A stretch of DNA of 64,000 nucleotides from Verrucomicrobiota bacterium (GTDB lineage: Bacteria > Verrucomicrobiota > Verrucomicrobiia > Opitutales > UBA953): positions 62,001-126,000 of the forward strand of contig VHDL01000007.1 in the NCBI GenBank assembly GCA_016871415.1. The letters are read 5' to 3'. The notes under the pieces are model-generated. The model made no database searches and was not told the DNA's origin. It saw only the letters and a list, made by a program, of their open reading frames with translations. Numbering within the stretch: the first letter of the stretch is position 1; each line of letters opens with the position of its first letter. The translations under genes and the position numbers were made by a program. Positions 52,310-58,265 of this stretch are shown piece by piece.

Positions 52310-53371
52310 ATGAAAAGACGCGCTCTCATCACTGGCATCACCGGCCAGGACGGCTCCTACCTCGCAGAGTTCCTGCTCGCCAAGGGCTATGAGATTCATG
52401 GCGTCATGCGCCGATCATCCTCGTTCAACACGGGTCGCATCGAGCACCTTTACATAGAGGATATGGTGAGGGACATCCACACCAAGAAGATTCAGCTTCA
52501 CTACGGCGATCTCGGCGATTCCACCAATCTAATCCGCCTAATCGGAGATGTTCAGCCGGATGAAATCTACAACCTCGGCGCCATGTCCCACGTCAAGGTC
52601 TCCTTTGATGTACCTGAGTATACCGCCGACACCGACGGCATCGGCACCCTGCGGCTGCTGGAGGCGCTCAGGATTCTCAAAGTCGAGAAGAAGGTCCGCG
52701 TCTACCAGGCTTCAACCTCCGAGCTTTATGGTAAGGTTGTCGAAGTCCCTCAGTCGGAGACCACCCCGTTCTACCCGAGGAGCCCCTACGGTGTCGCGAA
52801 AATCTACGCCTACTGGATCACCCGCAACTACCGGGAGGCCTACGGCATGTTCGCTTCAAATGGCATCCTCTTCAACCACGAGTCCGAACGCCGCGGCGAG
52901 ACGTTTGTCACGCGCAAGATATCTCTGGCGGTCGCCAATATTGCGCATGGCCGCCAAGATTGCCTCTATCTGGGCAATCTTTCCGCCCAGCGCGACTGGG
53001 GCTACGCCCCCGACTTCGTTCAGTGCATGTGGCTGATCCTGCAGCATCGGCAGCCGGATGACTTCGTCATCGCCACGGGCAAGATGCACGCCGTCCGCGA
53101 TTTTTGCACGCACGCCTTCCGCCGTGCCGGCATCGAGCTCGATTGGCGAGGCGCGGGAGCTGAGGAGAAGGGCGTCGACCTCAAGACGGGGCGCACCCTT
53201 GTCGCCGTCGACCCACGTTACTTCCGGCCGACTGAAGTGGAGCAGCTGCTGGGTAATCCCGCCAAGGCCGTCCGGGAGCTCGGCTGGAATCCGCAGCAGA
53301 CTTCTTTCGAGCAGTTGGTGCATAAGATGGTCGATCACGACCTGAAGATGGTGGCCCACGCGAATCGCTGA
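52310..53371 (+). CDS. gmd: GDP-mannose 4,6-dehydratase
   Basis: This 353-residue short-chain-dehydrogenase enzyme makes GDP-4-keto-6-deoxymannose. It has [16 protein letters not shown], the hallmark [26 protein letters not shown] and [15 protein letters not shown] with the catalytic Tyr and Lys, and [16 protein letters not shown]. Codons are less GC-biased than in the flanking genes, which may reflect transfer. Its stop overlaps the fcl start by one base (TGATG), the usual pair for GDP-L-fucose synthesis. Confidence 0.97.
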
Positions 53372-54312
53372 TGGACCCGGCTGCGAAGATTTATGTCGCC
53401 GGTCACCGCGGCATGGTCGGCTCGGCCGTCGTCCGGGCGCTGCGCTCCGCAGGCCATGGCTCCCCGCTCACACGCACGTCGGCGGAGCTCGACTTGCGCG
53501 ATGGTGAGGCGACCAAGGCCTTCCTCGTCTCGGAACGGCCTGATGTCGTCGTCATGACGGCCGCGCGCGTCGGCGGCATCAAGGCCAATTCGGACCGGCC
53601 CTATGACTTCCTGCATGACAACCTCGTCATGGCTGCGAACGTGATAGAAGGCGCCCGCCTGTCCGGAGTCCGCAAGCTGCTCTTCCTGGGGTCCAGTTGC
53701 ATTTATCCAAAGTACGCCCCGCAGCCGCTTCGTGAAGACGCCCTGCTTACCGGGCCGCTCGAAAAGACCAATGAAGGCTATGCGCTGGCCAAGATCGCAG
53801 GCATCAAGCTCTGCGAACACACGCGGTCCCAGCATGGCTGCGACTTCGTAAGCGCGATGCCCTGCAATCTTTACGGCCCTGGCGACAACTTTTCGTTGGA
53901 AAATTCGCACGTGCTACCGGCGATGATCCGTAAGATGCACGAAGCGAAGCTGCGAGGAGACCGACATGTCCGTCTTTGGGGCACCGGCGCACCTCTTCGC
54001 GAATTCCTCCATGTCGATGATCTGGCCGAGGCTTGCCTCCTACTCATCGACCGGTACTCCGGGCCAGGTCCGATCAACGTTGGCTCCGGCGAGGAGCTTT
54101 CAATCCGCGAGCTGGCCGGCGTCGTCGCGCAGGCGGTGGGCTTCACCGGCCGCGTGGAGTTCGACCCGTCCATGCCCGACGGCACGCCGCGCAAGCTCAT
54201 GGACGTCTCGCGCATCCGCGCCCTCGGCTGGAGGCATCGCATCCCGCTTGATCGCGGCGTCAGCGAGGCCTACGCCTGGTACCTCGCGTACGCCGCCGAA
54301 GCGCGGCGCTGA
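53371..54312 (+). CDS. fcl: GDP-L-fucose synthase
   Basis: This 313-residue epimerase/reductase turns GDP-4-keto-6-deoxymannose into GDP-L-fucose. It has VAGHRGMVGSAVVRAL, AARVGGIKANSDRPYDFLHDN, FLGSSCIYPKYAPQP with the catalytic Ser, NEGYALAKIAGIKLCE with Tyr and Lys, and PCNLYGPGDNF. Catalytic residues are all present. It follows gmd directly, and a repeat element begins 13 bp after its stop. Confidence 0.97.
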   Translation: MDPAAKIYVAGHRGMVGSAVVRALRSAGHGSPLTRTSAELDLRDGEATKAFLVSERPDVVVMTAARVGGIKANSDRPYDFLHDNLVMAANVIEGARLSGVRKLLFLGSSCIYPKYAPQPLREDALLTGPLEKTNEGYALAKIAGIKLCEHTRSQHGCDFVSAMPCNLYGPGDNFSLENSHVLPAMIRKMHEAKLRGDRHVRLWGTGAPLREFLHVDDLAEACLLLIDRYSGPGPINVGSGEELSIRELAGVVAQAVGFTGRVEFDPSMPDGTPRKLMDVSRIRALGWRHRIPLDRGVSEAYAWYLAYAAEARR

Positions 54313-54325
54313 GCGCAGCTGCTTG

Positions 54326-54555
54326 GTGCAAAAGTATTTTCAGGGGCAGGGGCAGGGGCAGGGACAGGGGCAGAGATGCAACTTCGGCATCTCAATCTGA
54401 GCGAACCATCCTAGGAGCCGGCCGCCCAAATCCGAGATTCGCAATTCAGGATATTTTCCTGTCCCCGCCCCTGTCCCTGCCCCTGTACCTGTCCCTAATC
54501 TAACCTTTGCACTTTTGCACAGGAGCTCCGTTCCGGTTTGCACCTTTGCACTGCC
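54326..54555 (+). repeat. Repeat element, copy 1 (G-tract/C-tract palindromic unit)
   Basis: This element has GTGCAAAAGT at 54326-54335, then five AGGGRC hexamers at 54342-54371 (AGGGGC x3, AGGGAC, AGGGGC), a core of about 85 bp (with AATCTGAGCGAAC and AAATCCGAGAT-CGCAATTC), a complementary C-rich tract at 54459-54496 (GTCCCC, GCCCCT, GTCCCT), and ACTTTTGCAC at 54511-54520, the exact inverse of the left end. A second copy lies at 55386. Relative to it, this copy has 39 extra bases around 54502-54540 and four TTTGCAC heptamers. With the spacer to kdsB it fills 54313-54625; I see no gene in it. The left tract has G-quadruplex potential, and the ends could pair as a long hairpin. Confidence 0.85.
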
Positions 54556-54596
54556 TCCCCACCGCCTCCCCCTGAGCCTTCGCGCCTCCCCCTCGC

Positions 54597-54606
54597 CCAC
54601 GTGCCA
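54597..54606. repeat. CCACGTGCCA direct repeat, left of kdsB
   Basis: This 10-bp sequence lies 20 bp before the kdsB start and is repeated exactly at 55367-55376, 7 bp after the kdsB stop. Together with the larger repeat copies outside them, the two short repeats bracket kdsB. Ten identical bases could be chance, and no target-site logic is proven. Confidence 0.5.
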
Positions 54607-54625
54607 GCTTGTCCCCTGAACTGAA

Positions 54626-55360
54626 ATGCCCTCCGTCACCCTCTGCATCCCCGCGCGTCTCGCCTCGACGCGCCTTCCGCGCAAAGTCCTGCTCGACCTC
54701 GGCGGCAAGCCCGTCGTCCAGCATGTCTGGGAGCGCGCCAAGCAGGCCCGCCAGGCCGACCGCGTCGTGCTGCTGACCGACTCCGAGGAGGTCGCCGGCG
54801 TCGCCCGCGGCTTCGGTGCGGAGGTCATGATGACCGATCCGGCCTGTCCCTCGGGCACGGCCCGCATGGCCAGCGTGATCGACCGTCTGTCCGGCGATTT
54901 CTTCCTCAATGTGCAGGGCGACGAGCCGTTCATCGAGCCCGCGCTGCTCGACGGACTCATCAGCCGCTGGAAGGAGACCGGGTGCCGCCTGGTCACCGCG
55001 GTCTCCCGCATCGCGTCCGCCGAGCGCCTCCTCGCCGCCAGCGTGGTCAAGGTCGTCCGGGCGGAGGACGGCACGGCCCTCTACTTCTCCCGCAGCCCCG
55101 TCCCGCACCTGCGCGGCGTCGATTTGGCGGAATGGACCGCGCGGCGCGATTACTGGGCGCACATCGGCATCTACGGCTACGACCGCGCTACCCTCGCCGC
55201 CTATCCCGGCCTCGGGGCCACCGAGCTCGAGACAGCCGAGTCGCTCGAGCAGCTCCGCTTCCTCGCGCACGGCATGACCTTCCAGACCGTTATCACCGGC
55301 TACCATCCCGTGGCCATCGACACCCCCGCCGACCTCGAGGCCGCGCGGAAGATGGTGTGA
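54626..55360 (+). CDS. kdsB: 3-deoxy-manno-octulosonate cytidylyltransferase
   Basis: This 244-residue enzyme makes CMP-KDO for lipopolysaccharide. IPARLASTRLPRKVLLDLGGKP binds the nucleotide (first 20 residues of that block are the signature), FLNVQGDEPFIEP, and the YWAHIGIYGYDRATL and LETAESLEQLRFL blocks match KdsB. The length is standard. It is framed by the two copies of the intergenic repeat and by short CCACGTGCCA repeats, so the gene and its flanks form a discrete cassette between fcl and kdsD. Confidence 0.96.
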   Translation: MPSVTLCIPARLASTRLPRKVLLDLGGKPVVQHVWERAKQARQADRVVLLTDSEEVAGVARGFGAEVMMTDPACPSGTARMASVIDRLSGDFFLNVQGDEPFIEPALLDGLISRWKETGCRLVTAVSRIASAERLLAASVVKVVRAEDGTALYFSRSPVPHLRGVDLAEWTARRDYWAHIGIYGYDRATLAAYPGLGATELETAESLEQLRFLAHGMTFQTVITGYHPVAIDTPADLEAARKMV

Positions 55361-55366
55361 CGCGTG

Positions 55367-55376
55367 CCACGTGCCA
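55367..55376. repeat. CCACGTGCCA direct repeat, right of kdsB
   Basis: This is the second exact copy of the 10-bp sequence found before kdsB at 54597. It is itself part of a GTGCCAC-GTGCCA tandem (55364-55376). It is followed after 9 bp by the left end of repeat element copy 2. Confidence 0.5.
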
Positions 55377-55385
55377 AGCGCCGCG

Positions 55386-55560
55386 GTGTAAAAGTGTTTT
55401 AAGGGACAGGGGCAGGGACAGGGGCAGGGACAGGCATGCGACTTCAGTATCTGAATCTGAGCGAACTGGACCAGGAACCACTCGCCTAAATCCGAGATGC
55501 GCAATTCGGGATGTTTCCCCGCCCCTGTCCCTGCCCCTAATCTCACCTTTGCACTGCTTC
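55386..55560 (+). repeat. Repeat element, copy 2
   Basis: Same orientation and architecture as the copy at 54326: GTGTAAAAGTGTTTTA at the left end, five hexamers at 55402-55431 (AGGGAC and AGGGGC alternating), a core with AATCTGAGCGAAC and AAATCCGAGATGCGCAATTC, a C-rich tract at 55517-55538 (CCCCGCCCCTGTCCCTGCCC) and TAATCTCACCTTTGCACTGC at the right end. The hexamer order differs from copy 1 and the right end is shorter, so the copies have diverged independently. The element lies between kdsB and kdsD and codes for nothing recognisable. Confidence 0.85.
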
Positions 55561-55605
55561 TAATCAACTCCTCCTCCCCCTTCTAAACCCATACGCTCGC
55601 CCATC

Positions 55606-56580
55606 ATGCCCACCCCCCTCGAATCCGCCCGTGCGCTGCTCGCCGCCGAGGCCGCCGCGCTTTCCGAACTCGCCGCCCGCATCGGCGCGCCCTTTGAGCG
55701 CGCCGTCGAAAGCATCGCCGCCCATCGCGGCAAGGTCGTCGTCTGCGGCGTTGGCAAGTCCGGCCTCATCGGCCAGAAGGTCGCCGCGACGCTCTGCAGC
55801 ACCGGCACGCCCGCCATCTTCCTCCACGCCGCCGACGCGGTCCATGGCGACCTGGGCATCCTGCAGCCCGGCGATCCGGTCATCCTCGTCTCCCGCTCCG
55901 GCACCACCGCCGAGCTGGTGCGCCTCATCCCGGTCCTGCGCGGCTTCGGCTCCCCGCTCATCGCCATCGTCGGCAATCTCTCCTCGCCGCTCGCGGAGCA
56001 GTCCGACGTGGTCCTCGACATCGGCGCCCGCCCCGAGGCCGATCCGCTCGGGCTGGTCCCGACCACCAGCGCGCTGCTGACCCTCGCGCTCGGCGACGCG
56101 CTCGCGGCGGCGCTCATGACGAAGCGCGGCTTCGGTCCGTCCGACTTCGCCCGGTTCCATCCCGCCGGCCAGCTCGGCCGCAACCTCACCCTCACGGTCG
56201 GTGAGGCGCTCCAGCCGCTCGAACGCTGCGCCTGCGCACGCCCGGGCGACTCCCTGCGCGACACGGTCATCGCCATGACGCGCCACCCGCACGGCGCCGC
56301 CTGCGTGCTCGGCGCGGACGGCACGCTCGCCGGCCTGATCACCGACGGCGACCTGCGTCGCGCGCTCGGCCGCGGCGTCGACCTCAACGCCGCCCGCGCG
56401 GGCGACATCATGACGGCCAATCCCATCCGCGCCCACGGCCCGATGTCCCTCGCCGAGGCCGCCCGCCTGATGGAGGACCGCCCCTCGCAGATCTCCGTGC
56501 TGCCCGTGACCGACGCCGCGACGAACCGTTGCCTCGGCCTCATCCGCATCCACGACATCTACCAGGCCGGTCTGGTCTGA
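55606..56580 (+). CDS. kdsD: D-arabinose 5-phosphate isomerase
   Basis: This 324-residue KpsF/GutQ-type enzyme makes arabinose 5-phosphate, the first KDO precursor. An N-terminal SIS domain (VVVCGVGKSGLIGQKVAATLCSTG shown here by VCGVGKSGLIGQK, and VILVSRSGTTAEL) is followed by FHPAGQLGRNL and two CBS domains (residues about 205-324). Neighbouring kdsB supports the KDO role. It starts 45 bp after repeat copy 2 and is followed by the ligase-like gene at 5 bp. Confidence 0.95.
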   Translation: MPTPLESARALLAAEAAALSELAARIGAPFERAVESIAAHRGKVVVCGVGKSGLIGQKVAATLCSTGTPAIFLHAADAVHGDLGILQPGDPVILVSRSGTTAELVRLIPVLRGFGSPLIAIVGNLSSPLAEQSDVVLDIGARPEADPLGLVPTTSALLTLALGDALAAALMTKRGFGPSDFARFHPAGQLGRNLTLTVGEALQPLERCACARPGDSLRDTVIAMTRHPHGAACVLGADGTLAGLITDGDLRRALGRGVDLNAARAGDIMTANPIRAHGPMSLAEAARLMEDRPSQISVLPVTDAATNRCLGLIRIHDIYQAGLV

Positions 56581-56585
56581 CCCGC

Positions 56586-58265
56586 ATGCGCACGAAGTCC
56601 GCCCATCATCGCGATTCCTCGCTCACCCCGCGCGAGCGCGCCGTGCTCGTCGTCGCCGCGGCGGTGCTCGCGCTCGTGCCGTGGTCCTGGGGCGGCTCCG
56701 TGCCTTGGACGGTCTTCGCCGGCTGCGGCTTCTCCCTGGCCGCGCTCCTCGCCGCGGTCGGCACCCTCGGCGGTCAGCGCGTTGCCCTCCTCGTCTGGGG
56801 CGTCCTGCTCGGGACCTCCTTCGCCTTCGTGCCTGCCGACGTTCCCGCGTGGTCGCACGCGTGGCTGGACTGGACCGCCTTCCCGATGTGCGGCCTCGCC
56901 GGCTCCGCCTTCGCCGCCTGGTCCATGCGCGCGGACCTCCGTTCACGCACCTCGGCGGAGTCCTGCGCGGACCTCTGCCAGTTCGTGCCTTTTTGGGCCG
57001 GCCTCGCCTTCGCCGCCTACGTGACCGTGCAGGCCCTCAACCCGTGGGTACGCGTCGATGACGTCGAGGGGTTCTGGAAGGCGCAGGGCCTCGCGTTGCC
57101 CAAGGGTGAGGCGACTCACGTGCTCCGATCCCTCGACCACGTCGCCTGGCTGCCCTCGGGCGTCGAGGCTCCGTTCTCCGGCGGCAACCGCCTCTGGTTC
57201 GGCATGAATGCCTGGCGCGTGCTCGTCACCCTCGCCGGCCCCTGGATGCTCTTCTGCGCGCTGGCGGTCGGCCTGCCGCGCCGTCGCGGCTACGTGACGC
57301 TCGGCTGGATCTCGGTGCTGTCCGCCGTCGTCGTCGGCGCCTTCGGACTCGTCAACCAACTTTCGCGCGGGACTTTGCTGGGCGTGAGTGTCCCTACGGA
57401 CACGACCACATTTGGAACCTTTTTCGCACGCACGCACGCTGCGGTCTACCTCTACTTGCACGTTGCTCTGGCGCTCGCGCTGGGCCTCTGGCATCTCCGC
57501 CGCTTGGCGGAGCACGCCTCGCTCGGCGGCCCCCACCTTCTGGCCGGGTTCGCCGCGCTCACGCTCGCGGCCGTCGCGGCCATGGTCAACAGCATGGGGG
57601 CCGTCGCGGTCATTGCGCTGCTCTTCCTCGTCGTGCTGCCCCTCGCCTGGAAGGTCGGGCTCCGCTCGGCGGGCTTCGACGTGAAGGACGGCGCGTTCTA
57701 CGCCGCCGTCGCATCGCTCTTCGCGGCCCTCGCGCTGCTCTCCGTGGCCGATTTCGGCCAGCTCGAGAAGAAGCTCCACTCCAAGATCGCGGCTTTCAGC
57801 GCGTCCGGCGCCGATGACCGCGCGCCCTACCGCCGGGCCACCTGGGCGATGGCCACCGAAGGCGGGCTCACGGGCCGGGTCTGGTGCGGCTGGGGCGCGG
57901 GCTCCTACCGCTGGATTTCGCCGCCCTACCAGGCGGCGCAGCCGGAGCTGCTCCGTCAGAACGGCTCCATGCGCTACCGGGCCCACTACGCTCACAACGA
58001 CTGGCTGCAGCTGCTGGCCGAGGTCGGCATCCTCGGCTGCCTGCCCGTGCTCGTGGCCCTCGGCTGGCTCTTGCGTCGGTTGCGTCTGGCGTTCGTCCCC
58101 GGCCGTCCCGAGGCGCTCGTGCTCGGCGGCGCGCTCCTCCTCTTCGGTCTGCACGCGTGGTTCGACCTGCTGGTCTGGTTCACGCCGGTCCTCTACGCGC
58201 TCGCGTTGGTCACGTCGGCCCTGCTCGCCTTCCTGGCCCGTTCCTCCTCCGCGCCGGAGGCCTGA
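56586..58265 (+). CDS. O-antigen ligase/polymerase-like membrane protein (Wzy_C)
   Basis: This 559-residue protein has about 10-12 membrane helices and, in the C-terminal half, the Wzy_C-type region with a long periplasmic loop containing APYRRATWAMATEGG, GWGAGSYRWISPPYQ and YRAHYAHNDWLQLLAEVGILG; the His-Asn-Asp-Trp block is typical of O-antigen ligases and polymerases. It either joins O-polysaccharide to lipid A core or polymerises repeat units. ATG 56586 (MRTKSAHHR) follows the kdsD stop by 5 bp. Confidence 0.88.
   Translation: MRTKSAHHRDSSLTPRERAVLVVAAAVLALVPWSWGGSVPWTVFAGCGFSLAALLAAVGTLGGQRVALLVWGVLLGTSFAFVPADVPAWSHAWLDWTAFPMCGLAGSAFAAWSMRADLRSRTSAESCADLCQFVPFWAGLAFAAYVTVQALNPWVRVDDVEGFWKAQGLALPKGEATHVLRSLDHVAWLPSGVEAPFSGGNRLWFGMNAWRVLVTLAGPWMLFCALAVGLPRRRGYVTLGWISVLSAVVVGAFGLVNQLSRGTLLGVSVPTDTTTFGTFFARTHAAVYLYLHVALALALGLWHLRRLAEHASLGGPHLLAGFAALTLAAVAAMVNSMGAVAVIALLFLVVLPLAWKVGLRSAGFDVKDGAFYAAVASLFAALALLSVADFGQLEKKLHSKIAAFSASGADDRAPYRRATWAMATEGGLTGRVWCGWGAGSYRWISPPYQAAQPELLRQNGSMRYRAHYAHNDWLQLLAEVGILGCLPVLVALGWLLRRLRLAFVPGRPEALVLGGALLLFGLHAWFDLLVWFTPVLYALALVTSALLAFLARSSSAPEA

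Follow-up and report, generated by a model that had tools for sequence, protein, structure and literature searches.

A composite palindromic intergenic repeat with inherited sites and probable within-genome homogenisation in a polysaccharide operon of a Verrucomicrobiota bacterium

Background

The element described here finds its closest known counterparts among the BOX repeats of streptococci, the BIMEs and GTAG-REPs, and the Correia/NEMIS, ERIC and other MITEs. BOX elements are modular composites in which short middle units, variable in number, lie between end modules; they are predicted to fold into RNA stem-loops and lie in and between the genes of operons (PMC3049150). BIMEs and GTAG-REPs are intergenic and consist of a short, dispersed palindromic unit paired in inverted orientation on either side of a stuffer, and Opitutus terrae has been reported to be rich in GTAG repeats (PMC2817692, PMC3733652). 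Correia/NEMIS, ERIC and other MITEs are about 100-200 bp long, with terminal inverted repeats and a long RNA hairpin, and hairpins of the Correia/NEMIS and ERIC type can be cut by RNase once transcribed (PMC2229807).

Each of these likenesses holds for the present element, and each is incomplete. Unlike those of BOX, its middle units are mutually complementary hexamer arms, its core can be exchanged and core-bearing copies are almost restricted to one operon. Unlike REPs and BIMEs with their RAYT, it ends in GTGCAAA-type units that carry no GTAG (or CGTC) tag, in a genome without a Y1 transposase (PF01797). Unlike with the MITEs, neither a TA target duplication nor a matching IS was seen, and orthologous insertion points and homogenisation within genomes dominate. 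The element appears to work like BOX, BIME and MITE repeats, yet departs from both REPs and MITEs in traits that were tested.

We argue, with a probability of roughly 0.55, that it is a non-autonomous composite palindromic intergenic repeat whose sites are inherited, whose copies are homogenised within each genome and which probably affects RNA processing. It would offer a clear instance from nature of intergenic palindromes that hold their positions across species and whose sequence, arms included, is homogenised genome by genome, and hence a system for asking whether intercistronic hairpins are kept for a purpose or are simply not lost by bacteria. It also carries a warning, in that such repeats break assemblies in this genus and can mimic regulatory elements of polysaccharide genes.

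Architecture and copies of the element

An initial annotation of the window (the whole stretch of 64,000 nucleotides that was analysed) had described two direct copies of a palindromic repeat flanking kdsB, and all the parts it listed, including five AGGGRC hexamers per copy, were found in place (Table 1). Both copies share AATCTGAGCGAAC (at 54394 in copy 1 and 55454 in copy 2), AAATCCGAGAT-CGCAATTC (54428-54447 and 55488-55507), a C-rich arm and a TAATCT-ACCTTTGCAC right end. They are 79% identical over 154 nt in ungapped comparison; copy 1 as a BLAST query recovered copy 2 from the whole 2.21-Mb genome at E=4.7e-36, and the core pattern, at up to three mismatches, matched twice in the window against a shuffle mean of 0.01, a likeness above chance.

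Table 1. Positions in the window of the repeat copies, their parts and the neighbouring genes
Feature	Position	Strand	Basis or remark
gmd, GDP-mannose 4,6-dehydratase	52310..53371	+	Pfam PF16363, E=1.7e-148
fcl-like NAD-dependent epimerase (GDP-fucose synthase position), upstream neighbour of copy 1	53371..54312	+	Pfam PF01370
Copy 1 of palindromic repeat	54326..54512	+	fcl-kdsB gap, same orientation as genes
Copy 1 left inner end, GTGCAAAAGT	54326..54335	+	sequence and alignment
Copy 1 left arm, five AGGGRC hexamers	54342..54371	+	G4 motif on + strand
Copy 1 asymmetric core, AATCTGAGCGAAC ... AAATCCGAGATTCGCAATTC	54394..54447	+	sequence, core pattern, alignment
Copy 1 right arm, C-rich hexamers	54455..54496	+	G4 motif on - strand
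Copy 1 right inner end, ACCTTTGCAC	54503..54512	+	sequence and alignment
Copy 1 outer right end, dispersed ~46-bp TGCAAA unit, TTTGCACTTTTGCAC-N16-TTTGCACCTTTGCAC	54506..54551	+	
kdsB, CMP-Kdo cytidylyltransferase, between copies 1 and 2	54626..55360	+	Pfam PF02348, E=4.5e-47
Copy 2 of palindromic repeat	55386..55554	+	kdsB-kdsD gap, same orientation as genes
Copy 2 left arm, five AGGGRC hexamers	55402..55431	+	
Copy 2 core	55454..55507	+	
Copy 2 right arm	55515..55538	+	
kdsD, SIS + CBS arabinose-5-phosphate isomerase type, 3' of copy 2	55606..56580	+	Pfam PF01380 + PF00571
Wzy/O-antigen-ligase-like gene	56604..58265	+	Pfam PF04932; start codon uncertain

Some of the earlier statements need amending. 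The G-quadruplex potential ascribed to one arm is real as far as motifs go, but both strands carry them, because each arm has G-runs on one strand. Likewise, GTGCAAAAGT and ACCTTTGCAC, taken for the ends of the element, are present but are inner ends only, since the element of relatives is longer outwards by one TGCAAA unit per side and there reads, in full, GGTGCAAAAGTGCAAATCGG-CCTGCGG-CCTGTGCAAAG, GTGCAAAAGTATTTC, hexamers, core, hexamers, ACCTTTGCAC and TTTTGCACAGGAGCTCCGCTCCGATTTGCACCTTTGCAC. The outer right unit survives at copy 1, and as this ~46-bp end unit is itself dispersed at more than 10 other places in the genome, the element is composite. The arms of copy 1 form terminal inverted repeats of the MITE kind (51 nt, 78% complementary), and, as in BOX, end modules enclose a variable number of short tandem units, arm length differing between aligned copies by whole hexamers and the ends remaining constant. 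The core is asymmetric, about 80 nt long and strand-specific in model matches (see below), and different, 'B', cores stand within the same frame in three relatives (G042, G026, G012).

Copy counts for this genome derive from searches and from sequence stretches that were read. A search for further copies yielded a third complete one on contig C7 (126650-126813), 650 bases beyond the end of the window and 90% identical to copy 2 across their length, which brings the genome to at least three. The core is present three times, always on C7, in a single orientation and within one locus of ~10 kb. At a fourth site (C7:129054-129242) a TGCAAA-type left end, a C-rich right arm and the right end are retained around a different core, a GTAG-type (GTAG-REP-like) palindrome recognised by eye, one of the true GTAG-type palindromes also present in this genome; GGGGTA hexamers can pass for the tag, and automatic 'GTAG-REP' core labels are unreliable at such places.

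Distribution and genomic context

Full relatives were found by BLAST in two genomes (G033, G034) and weaker ones in two others (G042, G026), all of the same genus. A covariance model built from 14 copies and run over 55 genomes of the genus returned 19 strong copies of 90 to 198 bits in seven of the 55 species, with far lower scores on the opposite strand. The family is counted from this upper score tier only; matches below about 82 bits are mainly opposite-strand matches of the same copies together with generic hexamer-armed palindromes, a type present in 41 of the 55 genomes. The hexamer pattern alone gave scattered matches across unrelated phyla in a contig scan of genomes, and viral contigs, plasmids and phages held no core-like or whole-element match of substance, the one plasmid match being a hexamer run alone.

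Surface-polysaccharide-type genes border 16 of the 19 strong copies. Fifteen of these lie in a collinear operon of the order gmd-fcl-kdsB-kdsD-wzy-...-SDR, which farther along encodes, by Pfam, a UDP-sugar dehydrogenase, a heparinase-like protein, a WecB-type epimerase and a glycosyltransferase; the other (G034e) sits among sugar-transferase-type genes on another contig. Three strong copies on short contigs or outside the operon count against our preferred reading: G026c and G044a, at contig ends 5' of a peptidase-like gene, and G026b, likewise at a contig end, with a polymerase gene nearby. Wherever the upstream gene is known and directly adjoins the element, the two are co-directional (16 of 16 cases), and the orientation of the element follows that of transcription at at least eight distinct sites, a pattern that points to copying with orientation preserved or, alternatively, to an effect at the RNA level.

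Occupancy of the gaps differs between species. The kdsD-wzy gap is without the element here and occupied in G034, and the nearly complete G041, which has no member of the family, shows the same gene order with 5-12 bp between fcl and kdsB and between kdsB and kdsD, gaps in which many other relatives hold unrelated palindromes. Because carrier species are scattered over the kdsB/kdsD/fcl tree, both gain and loss are likely, and the compact state of G041 could be a loss rather than the ancestral state.

Probable homogenisation and hexamer dialects

Insertion junctions align between species at fcl-kdsB, kdsB-kdsD and wecB-GT. Within one genome, copies from different gaps reach 90-94% identity (copies 2 and 3 here, G034a/b, G033a/c and G033b/d), against 63-85% for those from the same gap in different species. 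Left and right arms share a dialect that depends on the genome, GGGRCA here and GGGGTA in the relatives: (GGGRCA)4 has 81 matches here against 0-10 in genus members, and (GGGGTA)3GGGG, at up to one mismatch, has one here against up to 37 in the others. Left arms of this genome pair with its own right arms at -62 kcal/mol and with those of other genomes at -50, and the own pairing ranks first among 680 relabelings. Matching copy by copy was considered and rejected: the right arms of sister copies in the same genome pair equally well, so the arms are matched at the level of the genome. Taken together, shared insertion points, within-genome likeness and genome dialect point to old sites and, inside the locus, to copying or gene conversion that still continues.

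Under the preferred reading, two dispersed TGCAAA units would serve as inverted ends, hexamer arrays as complementary arms and the ~80-nt asymmetric stretch as the core of a repeat whose ancestral copies stood between genes of a Kdo / GDP-fucose / O-polysaccharide operon that is otherwise compact, their sites being inherited between species. Orientation-keeping recombination or gene conversion, a step deduced from the comparison of copies, would homogenise the copies between gaps and replace their cores, and the arms would drift jointly towards the hexamer dialect of each genome. The joint change of both arms within a genome, and the many different palindromes that occupy the same gaps, would also be expected of a mutational by-product without function, in which palindromes arise and are corrected in tolerant gaps, by slippage of G-rich words and by template switching at hairpins. 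Such an origin has perhaps a fair-sized minority of the probability, but the shared core and the exact junctions between species require common descent and copying beyond what slippage provides.

Mobility

The proposal that the repeat is a non-autonomous mobile element stands in part, for presence and absence between species fits it. An active MITE (a non-autonomous transposon served by a transposase in trans and preferring intergenic DNA) would further explain the inverted ends, the construction from dispersed units and the same gaps being occupied or empty depending on species. We nevertheless consider it unlikely. Inspection of copies 1-3 and of 11 related copies revealed no flanking direct repeat of the kind left by target-site duplication; insertion points are orthologous instead of scattered; in this genome the core keeps to its one ~10-kb locus; and orientation does not vary over the eight or more sites mentioned above. 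Nor was a transposase with matching ends seen: a search for PF01797 found no Y1 transposase in this genome, which is 99.5% complete (24 of the 55 genus members have the domain above cut-off), and the TGCAAA-unit loci that were read showed no autonomous partner, with contigs breaking at repeats and PF01797 as the transposase searched for.

RNA folding and possible function

The long RNA hairpin predicted by the initial annotation is borne out by folding, at -102.6 kcal/mol for copy 1 (z -9.5, shuffle mean near -61) and -81.2 kcal/mol for copy 2 (z -6.2, shuffle mean near -54). Fold z lies below -2 in 17 of the 19 strong copies; the arms of G034d and of G012a do not match each other and these copies fold weakly, so conservation of a perfect hairpin is not strict. 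Transcription probably carries the element into the operon mRNA, as the genes are closely spaced and co-directional and the compact spacing in G041 makes co-transcription likely, and it would there fold into a hairpin of -70 to -100 kcal/mol. A role for this intercistronic hairpin at the RNA level is plausible. By analogy with NEMIS and ERIC (PMC2229807) and with BOX (PMC3049150), the hairpin would most likely lead to cutting or stabilisation of the message; acting as an RNase processing site or exonuclease barrier, it could uncouple the levels of neighbouring genes.

Orientation with transcription, a strand-specific core, strong predicted folds and near-limitation to one functional locus are also what a cis-acting RNA regulator of the operon (an attenuator, antiterminator or processing signal, selected in several gaps) would display. 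Such a regulator seems doubtful to us. Covariation in the core is negligible (of 26 pairs in the alignment fold, four have two-sided changes, all in the arms), and a scan of 53300-56700 found neither terminator-like sites (short GC hairpin and U run) nor promoter-like sites. For the transcription attenuator suggested at first, an influence on mRNA processing is an equally plausible alternative. Exact matches to the ops/JUMPstart core GGCGGTAG were absent from the 300 nt around each of the 19 copies. Most relatives, moreover, have other hairpin types instead of the element in the same gaps, so the specific sequence is not required. The element is absent from the catalogue of known families in so far as no Rfam family exceeded its gathering threshold, tRNAs being the only matches in the window and unrelated miRNA hairpins the best sub-threshold ones for the element; the hexamer strings, searched for in the text of a literature collection, led to no account of the element.

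A bolder variant, to which we likewise attach little weight, holds the TGCAAA frames to be fixed and their interiors exchanged (this core, the 'B' core, GTAG-REP dimers); a dedicated copying mechanism would rewrite both arms to the genome dialect, and every gap would keep a long intercistronic hairpin whatever its sequence. The suggestion that the repeat is a recombination site shuffling or deleting polysaccharide genes is very improbable, for despite direct copies around kdsB alike enough to recombine and copying seen between gaps, deletion between them would lose kdsB, and the gene order from gmd to GT is preserved in this genome, G033, the contigs of G034/G026/G042, and G041; collinearity holds for five species, carriers and non-carriers alike.

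Further observations

Some features of this and related genomes touch on the materials of which the repeat is made. The dispersed ~46-bp unit has the form TTTGCACYTTTGCAC-(short palindrome)-TTTGCACYTTTGCAC, and the palindrome in its middle can be exchanged. GTAG-type palindromes occur in this genome although the Y1 transposase is absent, and their mobiliser may have been lost. In other species the fcl-kdsB and kdsB-kdsD gaps hold at least three further palindromic families, of the CAGGTCTCGGC..., GGTAGGGACGTGATTGCC... and GGTGGCAGG/CCGGAAACCGG types.

In 376 kb of this genome, the idea that every intergenic gap is a hairpin was rejected, pairing of gap ends being only slightly above that of swapped gaps and few gaps strong. 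On the coding strand, DNA just 5' of genes is rich in C (GC skew -0.16 over 127 leaders in 376 kb) and DNA after stops is without such skew (-0.01, 89 trailers). Arrays of GGGRCA/TGYCCC hexamers, near-absent from most genus members, were read here in about 35 intergenic clusters (for example C8:1-253 and C34:1105-1448); several sit at contig ends, so the arrays probably break the assembly of this genome. Where both arrays occur at one locus, the G-rich one is 5' and the C-rich one 3', whichever the strand, in 14 of 14 loci, three of which are copies of this element.
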